The position numbers and the translations under genes are program-made. A stretch of DNA of 64,000 bases from Spinacia oleracea. Lineage: Eukaryota; Streptophyta; Magnoliopsida; Caryophyllales; Amaranthaceae. The notes beneath the pieces were generated by a model, which made no database searches, was not told where the DNA came from, and saw only the letters and a program-made list of their open reading frames with translations. The DNA lies in NCBI RefSeq assembly GCF_020520425.1, contig NC_079489.1, forward strand, positions 20,050,001-20,114,000. Direction: 5' to 3'. Position 1 is the first letter of the stretch, and every line of letters begins with the position of its first letter. Of the stretch, positions 4,335-64,000 are shown in pieces.

Positions 4335-5795
4335 TCACTGGTGACCTTGGCCATCATCACCATCATCACCATCATCACCATGGCCACCGTGGCCACCTTG
4401 GCCACCATAGCCGCTGCTGCCTGCTCCAAACCCCCCGTAGTGGGTGGGCGTGAAGGTGCCCATGGAACCGGGCGCTCCGTACCCCTCTGTGGGGTAAGTA
4501 AACCAGGAAGGGTGCTGATGATCTGGGGCAATGTAGCCCTGCCTGGCGTACTGATCAAAGAAGGGAAACATAGTCCTCTGGTGATCCGCGGCAAACTCGT
4601 GGAAACCGAGCTCAAGTCTGCCCAGCCTCTCATGAATGGCCCCTAACTCCTCCGAAGACCCATGCTCCTCCTGTGGAGCCGGACTACCTCTCTGTCCCGA
4701 CCCCCTCTCTCTACGCCCTCCCCTCCTGTGGTGGATGCGAGGCGCGGCCTCGGGATGTGGCTGGGGTTGGGCTAAGGGTGCTGCTTGCTCACCTACATAT
4801 ATGTAATGGGGCTGACCCCTAGTAAAACTGGTGAGCCCGGTGGTGTCCGGGAGAGTAAAGAGAGCGTTCCTTTGGAACATCAATGACATCTGACCGGGGA
4901 GAAGTCCCCCGTACTCAGAGTGCACCCTGTAAAGGCTCCCAAAATACTCAATATCTAATAGGTTGTTTCCCCGGACCGCAGCATGGTCCCTCTCAACAAA
5001 TTTTGCCACCGCTACGGCAATGTGGGTGATCAGACCACCCAAAGCAATATCGGTCGAGTAGCGGTGGGTGGCGGTAGTAAGCAGTTGCATGGCCAAGTGA
5101 TGGGCCAAATTCATTCTGTAACTGTCATCACCATCTAACAAATACCCCCCGAGCACCTCCAACTCCGTGCTCCTCACATTCTCCTTTTGGTCCCTCCCAA
5201 AGATTGTAAAAGCCATAAATCTGAACCAAGCAAAGGGGATGGGGTGTTGCACGCTAGAGGCGTGCAAATGTTGCATGCTACCGGGATTAAAATCCCCAGT
5301 CAATTTCCCCCATACCTCACTATTGTTATGCCCCTCCCCGGGGAACCTGTTATACTCCACATTCAAACCAAAAATAGCACCAAAATCCTTGATAGACAAA
5401 TCATAATCATTATTGAACAATCTAAAAGAAACTCTAGTGACATCTTTGTAACCATTCTTTCGGACATTAAACGAGCTAAGGAATTCAAGAGTAAGATCCC
5501 TAAATGTCAACCTAGTCATGGAAAACATATGTTTCATGCCCACCCCATGAAATAATCTCCTAACATCCCTCCCAATACCCATATCATTCAAAGTTTTCTG
5601 ACAAATAAATCGAGTAGGGACTACCTTCCGTAGCTTGAGGTGTGCAATGCGGGTTTGTTGCTCCTCACTAGAGAGAATCATGTTCGGGAAAGCTGAATCC
5701 GGTGCAAATTGAGGTGGTGGTGGTGGACGGCTTGTGGAAGCCTCCTCTTGTCTCCTTGTTGCTCCAGTGCAAGTTCTTTTTGGCCTTGAACCCAT
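4335..5795 (-). CDS. Athila env-like / ORF-1-type protein
   Basis: About 486 aa from the ATG at 5795 (MGSRPKRTCTGATRRQ). The open frame extends further upstream, but that part reads low-complexity Ser/Pro sequence and the GC palindromes, so 5795 is the better start. The body resembles the retrotransposon ORF-1 (ATHILA) family found downstream of pol in Athila elements, with stretches such as LTFRDLTLEFLSSFNVRK and LFNNDYDLSIKDFGAIFGL. The C-terminus is proline/histidine-rich and ends in Gly-His-Gly and Gly-Asp-Asp repeats. I see no clear signal peptide or membrane anchor, so env-like describes position only. The ORF is intact, in line with the youth of the element. Its molecular function is unknown. 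Confidence 0.75.
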   Translation of the reverse strand: MGSRPKRTCTGATRRQEEASTSRPPPPPQFAPDSAFPNMILSSEEQQTRIAHLKLRKVVPTRFICQKTLNDMGIGRDVRRLFHGVGMKHMFSMTRLTFRDLTLEFLSSFNVRKNGYKDVTRVSFRLFNNDYDLSIKDFGAIFGLNVEYNRFPGEGHNNSEVWGKLTGDFNPGSMQHLHASSVQHPIPFAWFRFMAFTIFGRDQKENVRSTELEVLGGYLLDGDDSYRMNLAHHLAMQLLTTATHRYSTDIALGGLITHIAVAVAKFVERDHAAVRGNNLLDIEYFGSLYRVHSEYGGLLPGQMSLMFQRNALFTLPDTTGLTSFTRGQPHYIYVGEQAAPLAQPQPHPEAAPRIHHRRGGRRERGSGQRGSPAPQEEHGSSEELGAIHERLGRLELGFHEFAADHQRTMFPFFDQYARQGYIAPDHQHPSWFTYPTEGYGAPGSMGTFTPTHYGGFGAGSSGYGGQGGHGGHGDDGDDGDDGQGHQ

Positions 5796-6074
5796 TGTTG
5801 AAGATGATTTTGAGTTTTCAAATTTTTTTGGTGAAATTGGGTTTTTTGTGGAGAGTGAGGAAGAGTGAAAATTGTTTGGTGGAGGTTGAAGAGGATGTGA
5901 TGAGGATGATTTTGGTGTGTAGCTTGATGAATTTGAGTGAGAGATGAGGGAGATATGGAGAGTTGAAATTCTTAGGGTTTGGGGTTTAATGGAGTATGTG
6001 AGAGAATGAAGAAGATGATTGAGAGGTGAAGTGAAGAAGAATAGAGGAGCCCGTGCTCTTTTAATCTGATTTTC

Positions 6075-6415
6075 TCCTTTCGCCCGCCGGGCCAACGCCC
6101 GCCCGACGGGCCAACAGCTCGTAAGCCGCCCGACGGGCACAGGGTCGCCCGTCGGGCGAAAGGCGACACTTGAGTATTTTTCTCCGCGCGCCCGGTCGGG
6201 CGGCTATCGCCCGTCGGGCGTATGGCGACACTTCCAAAACTCTGCGCACGCGCCCGGTCGGGCGCTCCTCGCCCGTCGGGCGTAGGGTGACACTTCCATC
6301 AGCTCCGTAGTGAGCCGCCCGTCGGGCGGCTTGGCTGCCCGTCGGGCGAACAGAGATTTTTCAATTCTTTCTCTCCGCGCCCGGTCGGGCAGCTATCGCC
6401 CGTCGGGCGGTTTGC
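6075..6415. repeat. GC-rich palindrome cluster between pol and the env-like ORF
   Basis: Many copies of GCCCGTCGGGCG or GCCCGACGGGCG-type palindromes are embedded in AT-rich spacer. The same motif fills part of both LTRs (2527-2606 and 13214-13495). Confidence 0.85.
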
Positions 6416-6653
6416 GATTTTTGCTCCTACGGATTTTTTCTATCTTTTCGTGCTTAGAAGCTGAACCTGTACATCATTAAACACCCAATGACCGTAAAAT
6501 GCTCTCTCCTCACCACTCATGAACAAAGAAACTAGACTACAAAACACACAAAACAAAACTAAACTATTGAAAGCAATGAAATACGGGTTGCCTCCCGCAA
6601 AGCGCTGGTTTATTCATAAGTCCCGCTCGACCTTGTTACCTTGAATATGCCGT

Positions 6654-9200
6654 CTATGAGGCGAAGGGGTTGAGGTGATGGACCTCAACCACTCCTACAG
6701 TAGCCTCATCGTGATACAACTTCAGACGTTGTCCGTTAACCTTGAATCGTTCACCATTCTCATTCTCTACTTCAATAGACCCAAATTTGCTTACCATAGT
6801 CACGGTGAACGGCCCAGACCACCTAGACTTAAGTTTTCCAGGAAATAACTTAAGCCTAGAGTTAAAAAGTAGAACCTTGTCGCCCACCGCGAACTCTCTA
6901 TGCAAAATTTGATTGTCGTGCCACTTCTTAGTCTTTTCCTTGTAAATCCGGGCACTATCATAAGCTTGTAGTCGGAATTCATCGAGCTCACCCAATTGAA
7001 GTAACCGCTTCTCACCGGCTAGCTTTGCATCCATGTTGAGCTGTTTGATTGCCCAATAAGCCTTGTACTCCATTTCTACTGGTAAGTGACACGCCTTGCC
7101 ATACACCAACCAATACGCGGAGGTACCAATAGGTGTCTTAAAGGCGGTTCTGTATGCCCATAGAGTATCATCTAGCTTATCGCTCCAATCCTTCCTAGAC
7201 TTCGCCACCACTTTCTCAAGGATAGATTTGATCTCTCGGTTGGAGACCTCAACTTGACCACTCGTCTGAGGGTGGTAGGCTAGTCCAGTGCGGTGATAAA
7301 CTCCATACTTGCGCAGGAGCGCATCCAGATGCTTCTCATGGAAGTGTGACCCTCCATCACTGATCAAAGCGCGCGGAACCCCAAATCTAGGAAAAATGAT
7401 CTTCTTGAACAGGGAGATGACTGTCTTAGCATCGTTAGTAGGTGAGGCAACGGCTTCCACCCACTTTGACACATAATCTACAGCAACAAGGATATACAAG
7501 TTACCCTTGGACGATGGGAATGGTCCCATATAATCAATTCCCCATACATCAAAAATCTCAACCTCAAGGATCCCGTTCTGTGGCATCTCATACCTCCTCG
7601 AAATAGTGCCGGCCCTCTGGCACGCATCACAAGCCATAATAAAAGCCTGTGCATCCTTGAACATAGTAGGCCAGTAAAAACCACATTGTGACAACTTAGC
7701 GTTTGTTTTAGACGGTCCATAGTGACCACCATAAGGTGAAGAATGACACCTACTGATAACACCTTGAACTTCCCATTCTGGAATACAACGCTTGTACAAC
7801 CCTTCAGCAGTCTCACGAAACAAATAAGGGTCGTCCCAAAAGTAGAACCGGACATCATGTAGGAATTTCTTCTTCTGTTGGTATGACAGATCGGCCGGAA
7901 GAATTCTTCCTACAATATAGTTAGCAAAATCTGCGAACCATGGTGACTGACTGGCAAGTGCAAGTAAATGATCATCCGGAAATGAATCATCAATCGGTGT
8001 AGATCCCTTACCATCGTCATACCTCAATCTAGACAAGTGATCTGCAACCACATTCTCAGCCCCTTTCTTGTCGCGGATCTCTAGATCGAACTCCTGTAGC
8101 AATAGTATCCATCGAATAAGCCTAGGCTTGGCTTCTTTCTTAGAGAGCAGATACTTAAGGGCCGCATGATCAGTATAGACTATCACCTTGGATCCAATCA
8201 GATAGGTGCGGAATTTATCCAAGGCATAAACTATAGCTAGAAGCTCCTTCTCAGTAGTAGCATAATTAACTTGAGCTTCATCTAAGGTCTTACTTGCATA
8301 ATAGATGGCATGTAAAAACTTCTCCTTTCTCTGACCCAGGACTGCCCCAACTGCATAATCACTTGCATCACACATTATCTCGAACGGAAGATCCCATTCG
8401 GGAGAACGAATGATGGGAGCCGAAATCAGTGCCTGTTTAATCCTGTCAAAGGCGTCAAGACAAGCATCAGTAAACACAAACGGGGCATCCTTGAGGAGGA
8501 GCTGGGTAAGTGGTTTAACAATTTTAGAAAAATCCTTGATAAAGCGGCGATAAAACCCCGCATGACCAAGAAAACTTCTAACACCCTTCACATTAACTGG
8601 AGGGGGTAATTGTTCAATCACTTGGACCTTAGCTCGATCCACCTTAATGCCCTTATCAGATATCAAATGCCCCAAAACCACCCCTTCAATAACCATGAAA
8701 TGACACTTTTCCCAGTTCAAGACTAAATTGCACTCTTCACATCTTTTCAAAACTTTAGTCAAATTTAGCAAACAAGAATCGAAAGAAGTACCATAGACGC
8801 TAAAATCATCCATAAACACTTCCATGATAGACTCAATAAAATCAGAAAAGATACTCATCATGCAACGTTGGAAAGTAGCAGGTGCATTACACAGACCAAA
8901 AGGCATCCTACGATATGCAAAGGTACCATAGGGACAGGTGAAGGTGGTCTTTTCCTGGTCGTCCGGATGTATGGGAATTTGAAAGAATCCGGAATAACCA
9001 TCCAGATAACAGAAAAACTTGTGACAGGCTAGCCTTTCTAACATTTGATCAATGAAGGGAAGGGGAAAATGGTCCTTTTTAGTAGCAACATTAAGACGCC
9101 TATAATCAATGCACATGCGCCAACCTGTGACTACCCTAGTTGGTATTAACTCATTTTTTTCATTCCTCACCACAGTTGTCCCCCCTTTCTTAGGCACTAC
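6654..9200 (-). pseudogene. Athila pol: reverse transcriptase, RNase H, integrase
   Basis: The frame is open from just after a TAG at 9198-9200 and is in the same frame as the upstream gag-protease, so this is one gag-pol gene with a single stop. RT has the catalytic FMDDFSVYG near residue 127 and the conserved [12 protein letters not shown]. RNase H follows ([24 protein letters not shown]). Integrase has an HHCC zinc-binding segment near residues 480-530 (GGHYG...CDACQR) and the D,D,E triad in [15 protein letters not shown] and [10 protein letters not shown]. The polyprotein is otherwise full length with no other break. It ends with a conserved region typical of Athila ([12 protein letters not shown]). 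Family assignment is firm. Confidence 0.92.
9198..9200 (-). other. Single in-frame TAG in Athila RT start
   Basis: The minus-strand codons read ...CCC GTT TAG GTA GTG CCT.... RT homologues usually have glutamine (CAG) here, so one C-to-T change explains the stop. CAG is a CHG methylation context in plants, where deamination is frequent. Confidence 0.8.
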
Positions 9201-12182
9201 CTAAACGGGACTCACCCACTTAGAATCAGACACAGCATACACTATACCCGCATCAAGCAATTTCATAACTTCAGCTTTTACAACATCTTGCATGACAGGG
9301 TTCAAACGACGCTGGGGTTGGATGCATGGTTTATGATTCTCATCTAGATGTATCCTATGCATACAAAAGTCAGGGCTAATACCCTTTAAATCATCAATAC
9401 TGTACCCAATGGCCTTTTTGTGCCTTTTAAACACAATAAGAAGTTGGGATAACTGGTCTGCATCAAGTGCAGTACTGACGATCACAGGGCAAAGTTGTTC
9501 ATTATCTAAAAACGCATACTTAAGGTTAGCAGGAAGAGGCTTAAGTTCGGGTTTCTTTACCTCTTTAACAGAACAAACCGGCCGAACTAACCTCTTCAAT
9601 TTGATGCTCTCCGGCTCAGATTCTCCACCATTAAGAGCCAACTTTAGAGCATCCACTTCAGCACTCCAAGAACTGCTATCACCTGCAGAAGACTCACAAC
9701 AAAGCACTGCCTCCAAAGGGTCTCTTTCGAGAGCTTGGGAGACGTTATCACGAGTAATAAGGTCAACTACATCTATGCGATAGCATTGTTCCTCCTCTAG
9801 CATGGGACTTTTTAAAGCACTGTTTAGATTGAAAGTCACCTTATCATCCCCAACAGACAATGTCAATTTCCCACTTTTAACATCAATTACCGCCCCCGCC
9901 GTGTGAAGGAAGGGTCTACCTAAGATTATGGGAATTTGAGAATCCTCCTGCATGTCTAATACTACAAAGTCTACAGGTATATAGAATTTACCTACTCTAA
10001 CAGGGACGTCCTCTAAAACACCTAAGGGGTATTTGACAGAACGGTCGGCCATTTGTAGAGTGATATTGGTAACCTTAAGCTCACCCATATTCAGTTTAGT
10101 ACAGACAGACAAAGGCATGACAGACACACTAGCACCTAGATCACATAAAGCTTTATCAATAAATACGGTGCCAATGTTACATGGGATGGAAAAACTTCCG
10201 GGGTCCTTAAGTTTAGGTGGAGACTTGTTTTGCAAATAAGCACTACATTCCTCAGTAAAAGCTACAGTCTCTACCTCACAAAAAGCACGTTTTCTGGTCA
10301 AAATATCTTTCATGAATTTAGCATAAGCAGGAACCTGTAAAATTAATTCAGTAAAAGGAACCGTTACCTGCAAATTTTTGACCACTTCCAAGAATCTGCC
10401 AAACTGCTTGTCTAGCTTATTCTTGAGTTGTCGGTTTGGGAAGGGGAGTGCAATAGGTGGTACTTGAATATCCGCCCCCTTCTTGACCTCAGTTGTAGCC
10501 TCATTCTCATTGACTACCTTTTCAATTTCCTTTTCACCCATAACTATTTTCGGGATTTCCTCACTGACCAGATCACTAACAGACACCCCAGAATCAACCT
10601 CAACCGGCATAGAAGGACCATCATAATCCCTACCACTCCTCAATGTAATTGCATTAGCAGTCTCCCTATTTTCGGGCTGTGAAGGAAGTTGGCCTGGTGG
10701 CCTCCCTGCAATAGTAGTAGCCATCTGTGCCAACTGTGTATCAATGATCTTGTTATGAGCAGTAAGAGCATCGATTTTTGCATCCTTTTCACTTAGAGAT
10801 TTTTGCATTTGTAGCATCATGTTTCTCATCTCTACTAGCATAGGGTCAGGCTGTGTGGCTTGAGGTTGTGGTTGTGGGGGTGATGTGTGTTGTCTAGAGA
10901 ACCCAGGTGGCCCACTAGACTGTTGGTTGTAGTTGTTTCGGGGTTGGTAAGATTGTTGGTGTGGGGGTTGATATGGTTGTGGTGGTGGATGTTGAACTTG
11001 GTGAGGGTTTTGGATATTATTGCTACTGTAGGAAAGCAGAGGGTTATTTTTGTAGCCCTCATTGTAAGAGTTGGAGAATGGGTTGTTTTGTTTGTAGGAT
11101 TGAAATGCATTACATTGTTCAATAGAGCTTCTACATTCCTGTGCATAATGACCAGACATTCCACAACTTTCACAAATAGTAGTAGGTTGGGCACTTATAG
11201 CAGCTACACTAACAGGTTGGGCAGATTGAGCATTGGCCGCTTGCATATTATCGAACTTATAATGTAAAGCAGTCAATTGGGCAGTTAATTGTTCAATAGA
11301 ATTTAAATCATGCTTACCACCCTTGTTAGATAGACCTCTAGGATTTCCATACTGGGCATTGTGAATGGCTAACTCCTCAATCACCTCCATAGCTCTAGGC
11401 ACCTCAAGTTGCATGAACCTCCCACTGGCAGCTGAATCCAACAAACATCTAGACTCATTGCCCATACCATTATAAAACTGCTGAATCAAGAACCAATCTT
11501 CCAAACCATGGTGCGGGCATTCTCTTTGCAAATCCTTGAATCTCTCCCAAACCTCGAACAAACTCTCATCCGCTTGTTGTGAGATACCTAATATCTGACC
11601 CCTCAGACGAGCCGTTTTCTCAGGTGGAAAATATTTAACATAAAAAGCAAAAGCCAAGGATTCCCAATTATTGATTTTCAAAGCCGCCCGATTCAACCCA
11701 TTAATCCACAGTTTAGCTTTCCCACTCAAAGAGAACGGGAAAAGTATCTCCATAGTCTGCTCCGGAGTCAATCCCTTTTGCTTGATGGTGGAGCAATATT
11801 GGATAAAGGACTGAATGTGAAGATTCGGATCTTCACCTGGTTCCCCACCGTACTGGCGTCTCTCGATCATGTTAATCAATGCAGGCTCAATCTTGAAGGT
11901 CTCAGCTGCAATAGAAGGCATGATCGCCTTTGGTAGCACGGACAGACTTGGCTTAGAATAGTCCGTAAGCCGTGGGGTAGGTGGCGGTATCAGATTTTCG
12001 TCACCCATCTCTATCTCTGAAACTGAATCTGTATCTGAAGGAAAAAGATCGCCAATATTATGATCAGAATCAGAGTTATTCCCACACTGTGCAATGAAAG
12101 TTCTTCGTCTACGAAAGGTTCTTTCGGGCTCAGGATCGAATGGAGTAAGATTACTAGTACCTACGGTCCTGGGCATAGACAA
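9201..12182 (-). CDS. Athila gag-protease (N-terminal part of gag-pol)
   Basis: 993 aa. The retrotransposon gag domain spans about residues 110-260. A CCHC zinc knuckle, CESCGMSGHYAQEC, is near residue 336, followed by a Pro/Gln-rich linker. The aspartic protease site ALCDLGASVSVMPL is near residue 680, with the second motif ILGRPFLHTAGAVID about 70 residues later. The end reads into the start of RT (SKWVSPV), where the TAG stop falls. Gag and protease are therefore intact, but normal production of RT and integrase would need suppression of that stop. Confidence 0.92.
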   Translation of the reverse strand: MSMPRTVGTSNLTPFDPEPERTFRRRRTFIAQCGNNSDSDHNIGDLFPSDTDSVSEIEMGDENLIPPPTPRLTDYSKPSLSVLPKAIMPSIAAETFKIEPALINMIERRQYGGEPGEDPNLHIQSFIQYCSTIKQKGLTPEQTMEILFPFSLSGKAKLWINGLNRAALKINNWESLAFAFYVKYFPPEKTARLRGQILGISQQADESLFEVWERFKDLQRECPHHGLEDWFLIQQFYNGMGNESRCLLDSAASGRFMQLEVPRAMEVIEELAIHNAQYGNPRGLSNKGGKHDLNSIEQLTAQLTALHYKFDNMQAANAQSAQPVSVAAISAQPTTICESCGMSGHYAQECRSSIEQCNAFQSYKQNNPFSNSYNEGYKNNPLLSYSSNNIQNPHQVQHPPPQPYQPPHQQSYQPRNNYNQQSSGPPGFSRQHTSPPQPQPQATQPDPMLVEMRNMMLQMQKSLSEKDAKIDALTAHNKIIDTQLAQMATTIAGRPPGQLPSQPENRETANAITLRSGRDYDGPSMPVEVDSGVSVSDLVSEEIPKIVMGEKEIEKVVNENEATTEVKKGADIQVPPIALPFPNRQLKNKLDKQFGRFLEVVKNLQVTVPFTELILQVPAYAKFMKDILTRKRAFCEVETVAFTEECSAYLQNKSPPKLKDPGSFSIPCNIGTVFIDKALCDLGASVSVMPLSVCTKLNMGELKVTNITLQMADRSVKYPLGVLEDVPVRVGKFYIPVDFVVLDMQEDSQIPIILGRPFLHTAGAVIDVKSGKLTLSVGDDKVTFNLNSALKSPMLEEEQCYRIDVVDLITRDNVSQALERDPLEAVLCCESSAGDSSSWSAEVDALKLALNGGESEPESIKLKRLVRPVCSVKEVKKPELKPLPANLKYAFLDNEQLCPVIVSTALDADQLSQLLIVFKRHKKAIGYSIDDLKGISPDFCMHRIHLDENHKPCIQPQRRLNPVMQDVVKAEVMKLLDAGIVYAVSDSKWVSPV

Positions 12183-47540: not shown

Positions 47541-48492
47541 GATTTTACCTTCATACAGTAGAAGCAGAAAATGTGGATGTGCTGATCATTCGATATGTTG
47601 GACTTGACTGAAAATAGAAGCTGGACTTTCAATGCCTGTGTTACATTATTTATAGGAACAGGACTAATCTGTATATTCTGTTTACCCGATTAATGTAAAT
47701 TTGTAATGCAAATATGTTTGTGTCATTTGATCATCGTGTTTCAGCATGTTGTGCAATTTGTTACTTTGGTTTAGATCTGATCTGAATTGAACTTAATTTA
47801 ACTTAACTGAATAGAATTGAACTTAACTGAACTAAATATTAGTAAAATAAATAAATAATAATACTCCCTCCGTCCCAGAATATTCGTTACACTTTTCTTT
47901 TTCATCTGTCCCAGATTACTCGTTATACTTTTTTTCCAACCCATTTAAAGAAAGTTTTTATTATATTTTAATAGATGTTATTTTCTCACTTTGACCCACC
48001 ACACAAATATTTTAATCTCAACTCCTCTATCATTCAATATAAAAATATTAGTCTTATATGCACGCGATACGTGCGAGATTATACACAAACTAAAATTATA
48101 GATGGATATATTGTCACAAACCAAACCAAATTACATAACTCATGGCGATTTTCCTTAAAATAAGAAATAAACACAATTTACTCAAATTTAGTACTAAAAA
48201 GTAAAAAACAATTAAAACACTTCAAAATTTGCATCATATTACTTAATTTCTTCTTTCGTAGATGTTTTTCCCGGGATTGTTGATTCTTTTCCTTGATGCG
48301 TTTGCACTTTTGATCGAACTCCTTGATGTCAGTTGATTTCCTAATTTGTTACAGAATTATACAGAATATTAGGCGTGATTTATGTCATTTGATTTCTAAT
48401 TTATTACAGATTATGTACTCCGTAATTGATAGCCTAAAATTACGCTAACAGCTATAGCCTAGCACTAAGCTAATTATTTACACTAATATAAA

Positions 48493-59039: not shown

Positions 59040-60512
59040 TGTAGACACCTACTTTTGTCCCCATTCCCGAAAGGGAAGGTTCGATGATGAAAGCGTAAAT
59101 CTCCACTTGATAACGCATCTTCTATAAAATAACGAATCTCAATTCCCCTTTTCATTTCACCCAAAACCTGCTATTTATAGAAACCTTCTATTTATGGAAA
59201 CCTGCTAAAAATAGTAACTGCCGTCATGGGTAGTTGTTAAAAGTGGCAAGTCATAAAAGATAGAAACCTGCCAGAACTAGGCGTTGCACTCCAACATAAA
59301 TCCTGAATGAGATAGAAATTGCGAGAGAATCCTATTCCTAATATGATTCGAAAGTAAGAGTCACGTATTAATTAAAATCCTAGCGAGCCTAGAGTTCGTA
59401 ACGGACCCAGACGCATCCCGTCACAAGGTTAATACGCACTAAAAGACTCAATTAAATCTCAAATACTCTGGATTCTAGGAATCCGCATCTGACTAAGAAA
59501 ACAGCCCAGACCCTATTTTCAACGCCTAGTTCTGGGCGCCGAAATCTTCGGCGCCCAGGCCTGGGCGCTGAAAATACCTGGTACGTGTTTTTTCCTAATT
59601 CCTCGTGGATTAGAGTTCTACAATTCTATCTTTCCACGAACTCTTTTCTATAAATAGGGCCTTAAGTTCGACGTGAAAACAACAACACACAATTATTATT
59701 CTGAGTATTGACTCTAAACCCCTAAGCCTAAGCCTCACGCTGCAAAACTGATCACGCGTTCTGTCGCAATCGATCCATAAATCGAACAGAACGTATCCCG
59801 TCCCATAATTTGAGATTCGTTAAATAAAAGGAGAAATAGCAAAGTCAAAGTGGTTAGTTTTGTGAGAACCGTGACGCACCTCTCAAGGGTGCGTCGTAAT
59901 GTGTCCCTTTTCCATGGTTTAATTGCTTTCCTCGCCCTTTTATGAACTGTTAAACTAACTAAAATCTGATTGTTCGATCACGCTTAATAAATATGATATT
60001 TTTGGGAAATTGGATTATCATGCTAGGTCCCTTAAAACAATCTAAATCAGATAATCGCGTTCGATCTAGTACTATATGTTGCATATTATTAAAATCAACT
60101 CAGATTAGTTTAATAGTTAACGCATGTCCCTTCAATTATTTATGCTGAGCTAGTAAGGATATCCTGCCTCTGGAGTTATCGAAGAGCGAGTACTCCTCTC
60201 GGTAGTTACAGTCCCCCGAACCCTCAATCTCTACCCTGCGGGTGTACGTTGAGCGATCCCCACCACCAGGGATCACAAGGGAACCTACGGCCGTCGTGGT
60301 CAAACATAATTGCACTCCCTTTATGTCACGATAACCGGGTTTTGTCAGTTTTTCTCATTGTCGTTAAAAAATGAATGGCGACTCCTATATTACTAGTCAA
60401 TTGGGTGTAAACTCACAAGAAATCTAATTACACTTGATTTGACAAAAAGAAGCGTCACACCCACGAGGGACGAGGTCACGCATTAGCCTCGTGCTTTTTC
60501 GACCCCCTCACA
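59040..60512 (+). repeat. 3' LTR of element C
   Basis: 1473 bp, the same length as the 5' LTR. TATAAATA box at 59649-59656. Palindromic doublet at 59518-59575. Confidence 0.94.
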
Positions 60513-60517
60513 CCCCC

Positions 60518-61210
60518 CATATAACCCCCACCCACCCCATTCTCACCCGTATTCCTCTCTCTCTCCTCTCATTTCTTCATCTTTCTCTCTCAAATATTCA
60601 CTATGTTTCTCTGGTTTCTCTCCTTCTCTTTCTAGAATTTGAAAAAATCTCTTGAGTTTTTTCGTTTTCTGGGATCAAAACCTTAAAAAAAGTGGTTTCT
60701 CTTTTGATTTTGATGTTTTCTTGCTTAGATCTTTCTAAAAATTTGTTTGCATGTGCGCTTTTTGGGTTATTTTCTGGCGTTTGATTGAGTTTCTTTGTTT
60801 TCTGGGTTTAGTTGGTTGAAGATCGGGAAGATCTAGGGTTTCTGGGTTACTTTTGTGATCTGAGTTTTCAAAAAAGTGTTTGCATGTGCGTTTTTTGGGT
60901 TTTGATTGAGTTTCTGGTTTTTCTAGGTTGAAGATCTTGATTCTTTGGTTGAGTTTCTGGGTTTTTCTGGGTTTTTTTTGAATCTTGTTGAGTTTCTGGG
61001 TTTCTGGGTTTCTGGGTTGAAGATCTTGATTCGATCTTTGAGTTTTTGCGTTTTTTTGGGTTTTGATTGATCTTGGTTGAGTTTCTGGGTTGAGTTTCTG
61101 GGTTTGGATTGATCTTGGTTGAGTTTCTGGGTTGAGTTTCTGGGTTTTTTGGTTGCGTTTCTGGGTTTTCTGATTATTTGATTGAGTTTCTGGGTTGAGT
61201 TTCTGGTTTG
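60518..61210 (+). promoter_or_regulatory. CT-rich leader region of a small gene, with TTTCTGGGTT repeats
   Basis: A CTCTCTCTC/TTTCTTC tract (60555-60640) resembles a plant 5' leader. It is followed by a long T/G-rich stretch in which GAGTTTCTGGGTT and GTTTCTGGGTT repeat many times (about 60780-61205). The stretch could be a leader or first intron. Element C ends directly before it. Confidence 0.5.
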
Positions 61211-61631
61211 ATGGGTTCCAAAAAAAACGGAGAGTTTTCATGGGTTTTCCTCCTCCGATGATAACGTCGGCAAGACGGAGTCATTTGAGTATCAGTGCAC
61301 CGATGAGCACTGCGATCTTGGTGAGTATTGTGAAGGCGATCACAGCTATAGTGGTGAATATCTCAATTATTTACGCCAAAGATATAATTCTTTCTGTGCT
61401 TCTCCTTCCACCGGATCTGAAAAAACGGTGGAGGGTAAACCGCCACCGCCACCTCCACCGTCCCCTGGCGGATCTAAAACCCTAATTCCTGATGATGAAG
61501 TTGATCAACCTCCACCTAAGTCCCCTGATGGTTTCGAGTTTGGGGGGTCTGAAACCCTAATTGCTGACAAAGGGAAATGTGATCCCGATAACAGTGGCTC
61601 AAAATTTGATAGTGCATGTTCGAGGTCCTAG
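61211..61631 (+). pseudogene. Small proline-rich ORF, frame broken by an A-run
   Basis: The ATG at 61211 (MGSKKN) leads into a stop after 16 codons. The frame that stays open to the TAG at 61629-61631 is offset by one, and the switch coincides with a run of eight A residues (61220-61227). One A fewer would join them, giving about 139 aa. The open frame encodes a Ser/Asp-rich start, a Cys-containing middle (YQCTDEHCDLGEYCEGDHSY), a run of seven prolines, and two repeats of the type GGSKTLIPDDEVDQPPPKSP / GGSETLIADKG. I do not recognise the family. It may be a broken gene, a sequencing slip, or the first exon of a longer gene. Confidence 0.45.
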
Positions 61632-62336
61632 CTTTGTTGGTGTTGCATGTCTACAAGGGGCAGTTTTCTCTTCTTCCCTCTCTCTCTATTTATGGCTTTC
61701 CTTTTAGAATGCATGTTTAGCTGTTGATGATTGTAGGCCAGCAAGTGTGATCTCTTGCTGGCAAGGGTTGGATTTGTTGTTGTTGAAGGAGATTGTGTTG
61801 ATGCATGTGGAGTTTGGAGGGTTTTATTGATTTTCAATCATTGTTTTTCGCCCCTGTTTGTTTGATGCATGAGAAATGATGTTTACTTGATGTTCACATT
61901 ATGTTTACTTGATCAATTTGTCCCTATTTGATCTTGATGAAATGAACAAATGATGACAAATGTTAAATGGGTCCCTATTTGATCTTGATGAAATGAACTT
62001 GATGAAATGAAAAAATGATGATGACATGATAAATGATGAAATCATGAGATGAATTGATGAAATGAAATGATGATATGAAATGATGAAATGAGTTGATGAA
62101 TTTGTCCCTGTTTTAGCTTGTAAAAATGTCCCTGTTTGAGATTTACTTGATGAATTGGTCCCTTTTTGAGATTTTCTTGATGAATTTGTCCCTGATGTGT
62201 TTGGTCTGTTGTGTTAACCATGAAGAAATGTCCCTGATGTGTTTGGTTTGTTGTGTTATCCATGAAGAAATGTCCCCTGTTTGACCCTGTTTGACCCTGT
62301 TTGAGCCTGTTTGACCATGTTTGACCCTGTTGTGTT
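61632..62336 (+). other. Spacer before the small-RNA-like array
   Basis: T-rich sequence with GATGAAATGA repeats (61980-62100), two ATGAAGAAATGTCCC...GATGTGTTTGGT repeats (62185-62270), and a decamer array TTTGACCCTG (62279-62330). No ORF. Confidence 0.6.
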
Positions 62337-62412
62337 GATCGATGACGAGTCTTTCAATTTGCTGAGAAGCCAAGATAATGTGCTTCAATGAGGCTTGGGG
62401 ACACCTGAGATC
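62337..62412 (+). ncRNA. Candidate C/D box snoRNA, copy 1 (76 nt)
   Basis: Bracketed by GATC at both ends, able to form a terminal stem. Box C-like ATGACGA at 62342, D' CTGA at 62362, a C'-like AATGAGG, and box D CTGA at 62405. The size and layout are canonical. Possible guides are the bases before D' (CTTTCAATTTG) and D (GCTTGGGGACAC); targets are not assigned. Confidence 0.5.
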
Positions 62413-62458
62413 CTTAAACTGATTCCTAATTGTGTCCACTGAATTTGTCCTAGTGTGT

Positions 62459-62608
62459 GATCAATTATGAGTCTTTCAATTGCTGAGAAACAAATCCAAT
62501 TAACTTCAAACACTCGTGCTACCATTAGTATCAATTACGATGCTTCTCCGGCGCTAAGTGTTTGTAGTTTGGATTTGTGACTGTGATGCTTGGGGACATT
62601 CTGAGATC
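62459..62608 (+). ncRNA. Candidate C/D box snoRNA, copy 2 (150 nt)
   Basis: GATC ends; box C degenerate (ATTATGA, 62464), D' CTGA 62483, C' TGATG 62584-62588, D CTGA 62601. It has an extra internal block of about 74 nt compared with copy 1, including GATGCTTCTCCGGCGCTAAG. Confidence 0.45.
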
Positions 62609-62682
62609 CTTTTGTGTCACAAACTGTGATTGAATATGTTTGACCATGTTTAACTGATTTGTTTAGGTTTTTTTATCTTTTG

Positions 62683-62733
62683 CCAGTCTTTATGTCTTAG
62701 GAAACGAATAGTTTCGTAACACATATAGACTGG
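62683..62733 (+). ncRNA. Conserved 51-nt hairpin, copy 1
   Basis: A 23-position stem from CCAGTCT...GAAAC to GTTTC...AGACTGG has three mismatches and a five-base loop (GAATA). See the second copy at 63025. Confidence 0.6.
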
Positions 62734-62801
62734 CATTAGACCGGAAAACCTATTCATTTCTATGTTGATTCCTAATTGTGTGCCTTTAATTTGTTGTGTG
62801 T

Positions 62802-62951
62802 GATCAATGATGAGTCTTTCAATTGCTGAGAAATAAATCCAATTAACTTCAAACACTCGTGCTGCCATTAGTATCAATTACGATGCTTTTCCGGCGCTAA
62901 GTGTTGGTAGTTTGGATTTGTGACTGTGATGCTTGGGGACATTCTGAGATC
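62802..62951 (+). ncRNA. Candidate C/D box snoRNA, copy 3 (150 nt)
   Basis: The best-preserved copy. GATC ends, perfect box C ATGATGA (62807-62813), D' CTGA (62826), C' TGATG near 62927, D CTGA (62944-62947). Confidence 0.55.
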
Positions 62952-63024
62952 CTTTTGTGTTACAAACTGTGATTGAATATGTTTGACCAGGTTTAATTGA
63001 TTTGTTTAGGTTTCCGATCTTTTT

Positions 63025-63075
63025 CCAGTTTTCATGTCTTAGGAAACGAATAGTTTCGTAACACATATAAACTGG
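63025..63075 (+). ncRNA. Conserved 51-nt hairpin, copy 2
   Basis: Same length and loop as copy 1. The outer stem is CCAGTTT/AAACTGG instead of CCAGTCT/AGACTGG, a C-G to T-A compensatory change. Confidence 0.6.
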
Positions 63076-63146
63076 CATTAGACCGGGAAACCTGTTCATT
63101 TCTATGTTGATTCCCGATTGTGTCCCCTTTATTTGTCTTTGTGTGT

Positions 63147-63260
63147 GATCAATGATGAGTCTTTCATTTGCTGTCATTAATATCAATTACGATGCTTCTC
63201 CGGCACTAAGTGTTTGTTTCTTGGATTTGTGATTGTGATGCTTTGGGACATTTTGAGATC
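63147..63260 (+). ncRNA. Candidate C/D box snoRNA, copy 4 (114 nt, degraded)
   Basis: GATC ends and perfect box C ATGATGA (63152-63158), but D' is CTGT and D is TTGA. About 36 nt are missing relative to copy 3. Probably inactive. Confidence 0.4.
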
Positions 63261-63367
63261 CTTTTGTGTATATGTCCACAACATTTGACTAAATGAAATT
63301 GCCATGTTGAGTTCTAAAACAAATTTTATGTTTGTTTGATATTACTACCTTTATTGGTTTTATGTGT

Positions 63368-63514
63368 GATCTATGATGAGACTTCTTTTGCTGAGGCTGA
63401 AACCCTCTTATTTTTCAATAATACTCGTGCACCATTAGCATCAATGATGCTTTTCAGGAGCTAAGTATTATGGGAAAGGGTTCGGTCAATGATGCTTGGG
63501 GACAATCTGAGATC
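63368..63514 (+). ncRNA. Candidate C/D box snoRNA, copy 5 (147 nt)
   Basis: GATC ends, box C ATGATGA (63373-63379), D' CTGA (63391), C' ATGATG near 63489, D CTGA (63507-63510). The most diverged in the linkers, yet it keeps all boxes. Confidence 0.5.
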
Positions 63515-64000
63515 TTATGTTATTTGATATATGATGATTCTTTCATTTGTTATCATTCATGTCTTCTGGTTGATATGTGAATGTGCATGTTAATGTGTTT
63601 TTTAATGCAATGATATTACTTGAACCAAACCAATTTAACAAACTATTCATTCATTTCATTTCAAAATGTTACTTTGCTTACAAAATGTTTTGCATACATG
63701 TATTCCTTACATTCAAGCTTCCAAAAGTGACTACTTGTCCCCCAAAAAATACATGTTCCCAAAACACAAAAGTGTTGTATTCTTTGATCAACCCATGATC
63801 CTTAGTCCCCTTGATTCTCTATTTGTTTCTGGCATGTCTTCCCAAACTTTCCATTCTTGACTTGATCTGTTTGCTTGTCCATTTGAGCTCTCTGGAATGT
63901 CTTCCCATGCTTGATTGCCTCTATTTTGTTGTGCATTTGAGCTCTCTGGAATGTCTGCCATTGCTGCCTCACTTGTAATTCTCTGTGCATTGTTGTCCTC
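63515..64000 (-). other. Right-edge sequence with a possible minus-strand gene end
   Basis: A minus-strand frame, 63990-63802, encodes a polar tail with an internal repeat (QTFQRAQM and KTFQRAQM), matching two DNA copies of CATTTGAGCTCTCTGGAATG (63880 and 63934). It continues past the window edge. I do not recognise it. The rest (63515-63800) is AT-rich without features. Confidence 0.3.

Follow-up and report, generated by a model that had tools for sequence, protein, structure and literature searches.

Polycistronic box C/D snoRNA clusters are normal in plants, where an RNase III homologue starts the processing of the shared precursor and where dicistronic snoRNA-miRNA genes also exist, as described in PMC4660826. 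The same paper relates some snoRNAs to transposable elements and sets aside 132 loci that have snoRNA-type promoters together with transposon signatures. Mobile elements themselves provide the second point of comparison. Plant Tc1/mariner-type elements, which include Vulmar and Stowaway relatives, are smaller in the known cases; mammalian snoRNA-related retroposons are snoRNA sequences moved as RNA copies by retrotransposon machinery; and transposons capture host genes. To our knowledge, no transposon is known to carry a conserved set of snoRNA-type RNAs.

The locus that we analyzed lies in a 64-kb stretch of the Spinacia oleracea genome (positions 20,050,001 to 20,114,000 of NC_079489.1), hereafter the window. 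Its array resembles plant box C/D clusters in its box C (RUGAUGA), box D (CUGA), terminal stem, and tandem units on one strand. The spinach units differ from such clusters, however, in being carried by a transposon, in being ≈147 to 155 nt long, in holding a ≈95-nt hairpin between D′ and C′, and in having no identified target. The dicistronic sno-miRNA genes of Arabidopsis offer a further likeness, a snoRNA beside a hairpin precursor and an RNase III-type start of processing, although the sno-miR775 gene described in PMC4660826 pairs an H/ACA snoRNA with a miRNA, whereas in spinach hairpins alternate with units that are C/D-like, and a mobile element carries both. With plant Tc1/mariner-type elements the locus shares TACTCCCTCCGTTCC-type terminal repeats, TA ends, and a mariner-type transposase, but the spinach element, at ≈5.4 kb, has a further gene besides the transposase, together with an array of structured RNAs. 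Unlike the mammalian retroposons, it is a DNA transposon that holds the array, and the fold is kept between subfamilies. We found no similar element in the literature searched, which included PMC4660826 and PMC5122169 and had most subscription journals outside its scope. On balance, we think it rather probable that a spinach Tc1/mariner-type transposon encodes box C/D-like orphan RNAs that are kept by selection and alternate with covarying hairpins.

Direct reading of the window bears out the five units, of 76, 150, 150, 114, and 147 nt, that an initial annotation had placed on the + strand at 62337-62412 (u1), 62459-62608 (u2), 62802-62951 (u3), 63147-63260 (u4), and 63368-63514 (u5). All five begin and end with GATC as described there. 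The accompanying description of a box C at or near ATGATGA and a box D of CTGA needs correction at three points: box C reads ATGACGA in u1, it is mutated to ATTATGA in u2, and the box D of u4 is TTGA. The D′ of u4 is CTGT, as had been noted. We assign u1, a probably shortened unit in which both D′ and D are CTGA, to class A; u2, with a long hairpin as the D′-C′ spacer, and u3, with intact C, D′, and D boxes and a C′ of TGATGC, to class B; u4 to an internally deleted form of class B; and u5, which has kept its boxes, to class C, in which the stem sequence is unlike that of class B and the pairing is kept. A strict scan, requiring a 4-bp Watson-Crick terminal stem, 0-1 nt, [AG]TGA[TC]GA, and then a CTGA box D 50-150 nt on, finds three places on the + strand of the window (u1, u3, and u5) and none on the − strand, compared with chance levels of 0.07 per 64-kb strand (mean of 60 Markov resamplings) and 0.006 within the array (500 Markov resamplings). 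The strict form is thus present in 3 of 5 units, with u2 failing through its damaged box C and u4 through its damaged D and D′. A covariance model of class B units, whose training set includes u2 and u3 and whose E-values are rough, recovers at E ≤ 1 the five units plus a stretch of 29 nt that looks like the beginning of a unit (63526-63554, +; E 0.11), and nothing else in the window. Relative to shuffled sequences, u2, u3, and u5 fold with z scores of −3.5, −2.8, and −2.1, and a B unit of another copy (L022) reaches −6.5; the folds of u1 and u4 (z +1.2 for u4) are no better than shuffles. The unit pattern had no occurrence in the viral contig and prokaryote genome contig collections searched.

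A dispersed Tc1/mariner-type element has this array at its center, flanked by a second gene on one side and by the convergent transposase on the other; that the array is part of the element is firm. A search of the spinach genome (894 Mb, 242 contigs) with u2 gave 572 first-look candidates, and all of the best 40, which are those that the search scores, were matches; an older class A unit likewise gave 40 scored matches, from 125 candidates. We took 20 loci of 9.9 kb from the u2 search, and 18 of the 19 others share stretches longer than 300 nt with one of them, L012, the exception being L026. Four loci (L009, L011, L017, and L018) align, with gaps, over the full length of the L012 element, which is ≈5.4 kb long. 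Its ends are of the TACTCCCTCCGTTCC type with TA at both sides (10 left and 8 right ends read, variants present), and the terminal inverted repeats of L012 match in inverted orientation at 27 of 32 positions. The window holds a copy with a truncated left end, which starts at 60513, occupies 60513..64000, and runs on for another 2 kb after the window ends; its right terminal repeat lies at G000:C3:20116045-20116059 (locus L053). Further sites like the TACTCCCTCCGT terminal repeat occur at 47862 and 49641 on the + strand and perhaps belong to other mariner or Stowaway-type elements.

The C-terminal part of a mariner-type transposase lies at 63791..64000 on the − strand, convergent with the array. 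Its domains are DUF7769, above cutoff, and DDE_3, below cutoff. At E ≤ 1e-10 the transposase has 389 homologues, of which 120 were listed; several of these are named Transposase, mariner or Tc1-like transposase, and the best named ones among them come from carrot, spinach, and beet. In both copies read, the transposase is spread over more than one frame, through breaks or introns, on the strand opposite to the array. The element thus has the TA-ended terminal inverted repeats and the mariner-type DDE transposase that define Tc1/mariner. The array had been annotated as having the pattern expected of a plant C/D snoRNA cluster, with a match of the whole array to a dispersed transposon named among the findings that would count against it, and the place of the array inside a dispersed element is such a finding. 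Although the architecture and tandem arrangement are those of an ordinary host cluster, we reject that reading as first stated and give it almost no credence, because the sequence is dispersed within an element that has terminal repeats and a transposase. The case also serves as a warning that snoRNA predictors can call transposon repeats host snoRNA clusters.

The small gene that had been suggested just upstream of the array is the second gene of the element, an open frame of 139 codons on the same strand as the array (ORF2; 61212..61628, +). Compared with four older copies, its differences fall 45:33:128 at codon positions 1:2:3, and whole-codon changes comprise 87 synonymous and 117 other. 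This codon-position bias points to purifying selection between subfamilies, as for a protein gene; changes among young copies are spread evenly (6:4:6 in L012). A Pfam search of the L012 ORF2 gave no match, and a protein search returned two spinach proteins as its only relatives. Two telo-boxes (AAACCCTAA) lie within ORF2 on the + strand, at 61477 and 61552, and two each are found in L022 and L024; L019, L023, L025, and L027 have none, and no Site II element occurs within 60500-63600.

To compare the units across copies, we collected them from the window and the 20 loci, which together gave 31 of class B, 15 of class C, 5 long and 13 short ones of class A, and 13 deleted B units. A second set of 20 small loci, selected with class A, contributed another 21 A, 16 B, and 1 C units of full length. 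All loci were picked by likeness to u2 or to the older A unit, a choice that favors kept units. Alignments took full-length units only: A1 has 24 of 46 B and C units, A3 29 of 47 B units, and A4 25 of 26 long A units (omitting that of L028, in which a box C is no longer recognizable at the start), while A5 has 32 of 51 distinct hairpins. Classes A, B, and C have in common boxes C, D′, and D, a ATGATGAGNCT start, a D′ within GCTGAG, an apical TGCnnCATTAGnATC-like stretch, and a 3′-end GNNGCTTGGGGACA with CTGAGATC; their stem sequences differ. With the class B covariance model, E-values, again rough, run from 2e-21 to 9e-20 for the C units that it finds and from 6e-14 to 5e-9 for the long A units. 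Among the 115 units extracted, box C (RTGAYGA) is retained in 107, box D in 91, and both in 85, the latter comprising 40 of 47 B, 22 of 26 long A, 11 of 13 short A, 11 of 16 C, and 1 of 13 deleted B units. In the deleted (u4-type) form, box D survives in 3 of 13. D′ is CTGA in 24 of 29 B rows and 17 of 25 A rows, and C′ is only approximate (TGATGC, or ATGAAGC in class A). Class A units of older copies are ≈152-155 nt long. The 76-nt u1, which had been regarded as canonical in its short size, is probably a shortened derivative of the long unit that older copies keep, a direction that we infer from the long form common to classes B and C.

In the 29 B units of A3, 90.0% of cells in the terminal stem and hairpin are paired, compared with 30-43% when the partner is slid by 1-3 columns; the terminal stem by itself reaches 94.0%. 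Its pair 1/152 is GC in 17 copies and CG in 7, a compensatory switch from GATC/GATC to CATC/GATG, and it is broken by a single-sided change in the other 5 of 29 (3 GG, 1 CC, and 1 GA). Changes on both sides also occur at pairs 33/121, 38/116, 45/112, and 51/106, and the number of cells with such changes in A3 is 26, versus 10.7 in shuffles. The 25 A units of A4 are 93.0% paired overall and 91.7% in the terminal stem, in which GU, GC, and AU types occur at one pair; at terminal pair 2/156, 13 of the distinct rows have GU and 8 have GC, and both sides have changed at 39/123, 45/117, and 47/116. In A1, which joins B with C, 98.4% of cells are paired and four stem pairs have changed on both sides, a result that leans toward pairing because the structure came from the fold of A1 itself; for A3 and A4 we drew the structures by hand, following single-unit folds and the fold of A2. 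In A1, A3, and A4 alike, cells with changes on both sides outnumber those of the shuffles; the number of changed pairs and that of pair types do not exceed them. When mapped on a tree, compensatory events are few per pair, and the counts are not independent because the copies are related. Overall, an RNA structure under selection is well supported by these comparisons, and the C/D-like architecture with a closing terminal stem that had been described for the window is kept in diverged copies through compensatory changes.

Conservation of the units relative to their surroundings bears on whether the array is instead a neutral tandem duplication in a transposon, without RNA function. Twenty-five older B units are 84% identical to u3, versus 61% and 54% for the 45-nt linkers and a random baseline of 49%, a contrast that is biased because the loci were chosen by unit similarity. 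Where class A had been the criterion for choosing loci, the 16 older full-length B units have a mean identity to u3 of 0.82, versus 0.62 and 0.53 for the linkers, with the unit ahead in 16 of 16; the contrast is smaller when the same 16 are compared with one another (unit 0.857, upstream linker 0.800, downstream linker 0.679). Counted by single comparisons, the unit outdoes both linkers in 34 of 46 cases for class B, 11 of 15 for class C, and 24 of 25 for class A. Boxes in A3 have a variability of 0.045 against a column average of 0.098 (P 0.014; an alignment gap shifts box D in three rows). Box conservation is not significant in A4 (P 0.076), in the 15 C units (P 0.61), or in the 31 B units from the first set of loci (P 0.14); for the latter, P is 0.047 once the terminal stem is included. 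The neutral reading draws on the behavior of the array in individual copies: u2 and u3 with their linkers form a ≈343-bp tandem duplication (91.7% identity over 412 aligned positions) that, including the following hairpins, is recent; unit number differs from copy to copy; and boxes are damaged in u2 and u4 of the window, with u4-type units mostly lacking D. Nevertheless, the units appear not to be neutral, as they outlast their linkers and keep their pairing, and we regard this explanation as very unlikely.

Rfam 15 gave no match at gathering score in the array, and hits there and in three older loci were sub-threshold only, in keeping with the initial annotation, which had assigned the units to no known family; Rfam may not include all plant snoRNAs. 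The sn3071 family (RF01166) has GAUC ends and a AUGAUGAGACUUUCA start that align with u1, but at 16.6 bits versus a gathering score of 40 (E 6.5) we discarded it, as we did a kinship with SNORD99, whose score is far below gathering. A host C/D cluster captured by the transposon and now carried as a passenger, with its constraint a relic of the host gene, would fit both the polycistronic clusters that PMC4660826 treats as normal in plants and the established capture of host genes by transposons. Against capture, the compensatory changes lie between element subfamilies, that is, after the capture, and the array belongs to no Rfam family at gathering score; we consider this origin of the constraint quite improbable. 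Under the reading that we prefer, RNAs encoded by the transposon itself, the retention of the fold through matched base changes suggests that the RNAs do something for the element.

We looked for guide targets in a contig piece with 18S and 5.8S (2551 bases, 51 N), a U6 piece, and the U2 locus with 1.5-kb flanks; the 25S sequence is almost all N. Target prediction, which had been proposed as a check on the units, gave no convincing guide target here: after counting tests, no guide region matched the partial 18S, U6, or U2 with its flanks clearly beyond shuffled guides. The best 18S candidate pairs positions 3-12 of an older guide, GTCTTTCATATG, with TTTATGAAAGACGAAC over 10 bp, is equaled by 8% and 12% of shuffles, and is not kept by the window units; an A-class guide scores 10 on 18S, as do 10% of shuffles. 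Within U2 itself, judged by position, one stretch that overlaps box C′ forms 15 pairs, 4 of them GU, which 2% of shuffles equal. The U2 flank gives an A guide a score of 11, equaled by 3% of shuffles. On the U6 piece, guide 1 of class A scores 8 and guide 1 of class B 7.5, just upstream of or at the U6 start, as do 2-3% of shuffles. Because 18 such tests were made, we do not believe these scores. Guides compared with the transposase strand gave nothing above chance. Separately, the apical CCATTAGCATC resembles ATTAGCAT of U6.

A possible partner lies within the element. The array is preceded by a leader of degenerate short repeats rich in TGTCCC (61880..62330, +), complementary to the GGGACA before box D. 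Pairing of TTGGGGACATT with AATGTCCCTGA in the leader comprises 11 pairs, two of them GU, and 3% of shuffled guides reach it; it is a lead only, and for the other five guides 10-87% of shuffles do as well. TGTCCC occurs 0-9 times per 500 nt upstream of the array in 21 sequences, with at least 4 in 16 of them and a shuffled mean below 1, and it precedes a B unit in 11 of 13 linkers. GGGGACA is nearly invariant. We consider two conserved stretches, GTCTTTC after box C and GGGGACAT before D, to be candidate antisense or protein-contact sequences.

The hairpins between the units are the most stable parts of the array. The first (h1; 62657-62759, +) is ≈100 nt long, follows u2, and has a z score of −11.0; the second (h2; 63000-63101, +; z −6.3) follows u3 and is its tandem duplicate. 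Such hairpins are found in most loci sampled, in young and old copies (z −10.9 in L027), and their alignment has 95.7% of cells paired and 5 pairs changed on both sides, versus 1.9 in shuffles; in slid versions the counts go as high as 4 pairs and 14 cells changed on both sides. In Rfam, h1 has hits below gathering only (tp2, E 0.027; mir-3910, E 0.09), and no fixed ACA, as in an H/ACA tail, was seen by eye in the linkers after the hairpin in 11 older loci and the 2 window copies. The hairpins h1 and h2 may serve as signals for cleavage between the units or as precursors of small RNAs. Another long hairpin, outside the aligned units, lies at L047:45-174 (+), with sub-threshold Rfam hits to MIR837 (E 0.0038) and MIR158 (E 0.012).

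Given the stability and covariation of h1 and h2, the array might be a set of internal structured repeats with another use, as RNA or single-stranded DNA hairpins serving as small-RNA precursors or as a transposition structure, in which the C/D-like boxes are incidental. Long D′-C′ hairpins are indeed atypical of guide snoRNAs, and the partial 18S, U6, and U2 yielded no target. However, three related classes have their boxes at the positions that a C/D fold requires, the adjoining terminal stem covaries, and the A3 boxes are less variable than average; we hold this alternative to be unlikely. The box C/D assignment of the units, as judged from sequence, is likely.

Under the preferred reading, the array is a built-in part of the element, encoded on the ORF2 strand. 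Each long unit folds with its terminal stem beside C and D, and D′ and C′ flank the long hairpin; both possible kink-turn sites thereby adjoin a stem. The units would most likely be transcribed as one precursor downstream of ORF2, an RNase III-type enzyme may separate them at or near the intervening hairpins, and host box C/D proteins may bind them to give stable nuclear RNPs. As a possible though doubtful extension, the C/D-like RNAs and hairpins of the transposon might commandeer the host 2′-O-methylation RNP, or its stabilizing proteins, to protect, retain, or modify RNA needed for its spread, possibly its own transcript through the TGTCCC leader and GGGGACA. Should the units become part of host C/D RNPs, RNA-modification machinery would be serving a selfish element, whose many copies would provide a natural mutation series for testing such use.

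Elsewhere in the window, retrotransposon gag, protease, RT, RNase H, and integrase sequences occupy 4335-12176 on the − strand in gypsy-type order, with an ATHILA ORF1-like frame. Opposite an open frame with retrotransposon gag domains (9201-12176, −), positions 11503-11609 on the + strand match Rfam snoR71 (RF00097) at 57 bits versus a gathering score of 40, with imperfect boxes.
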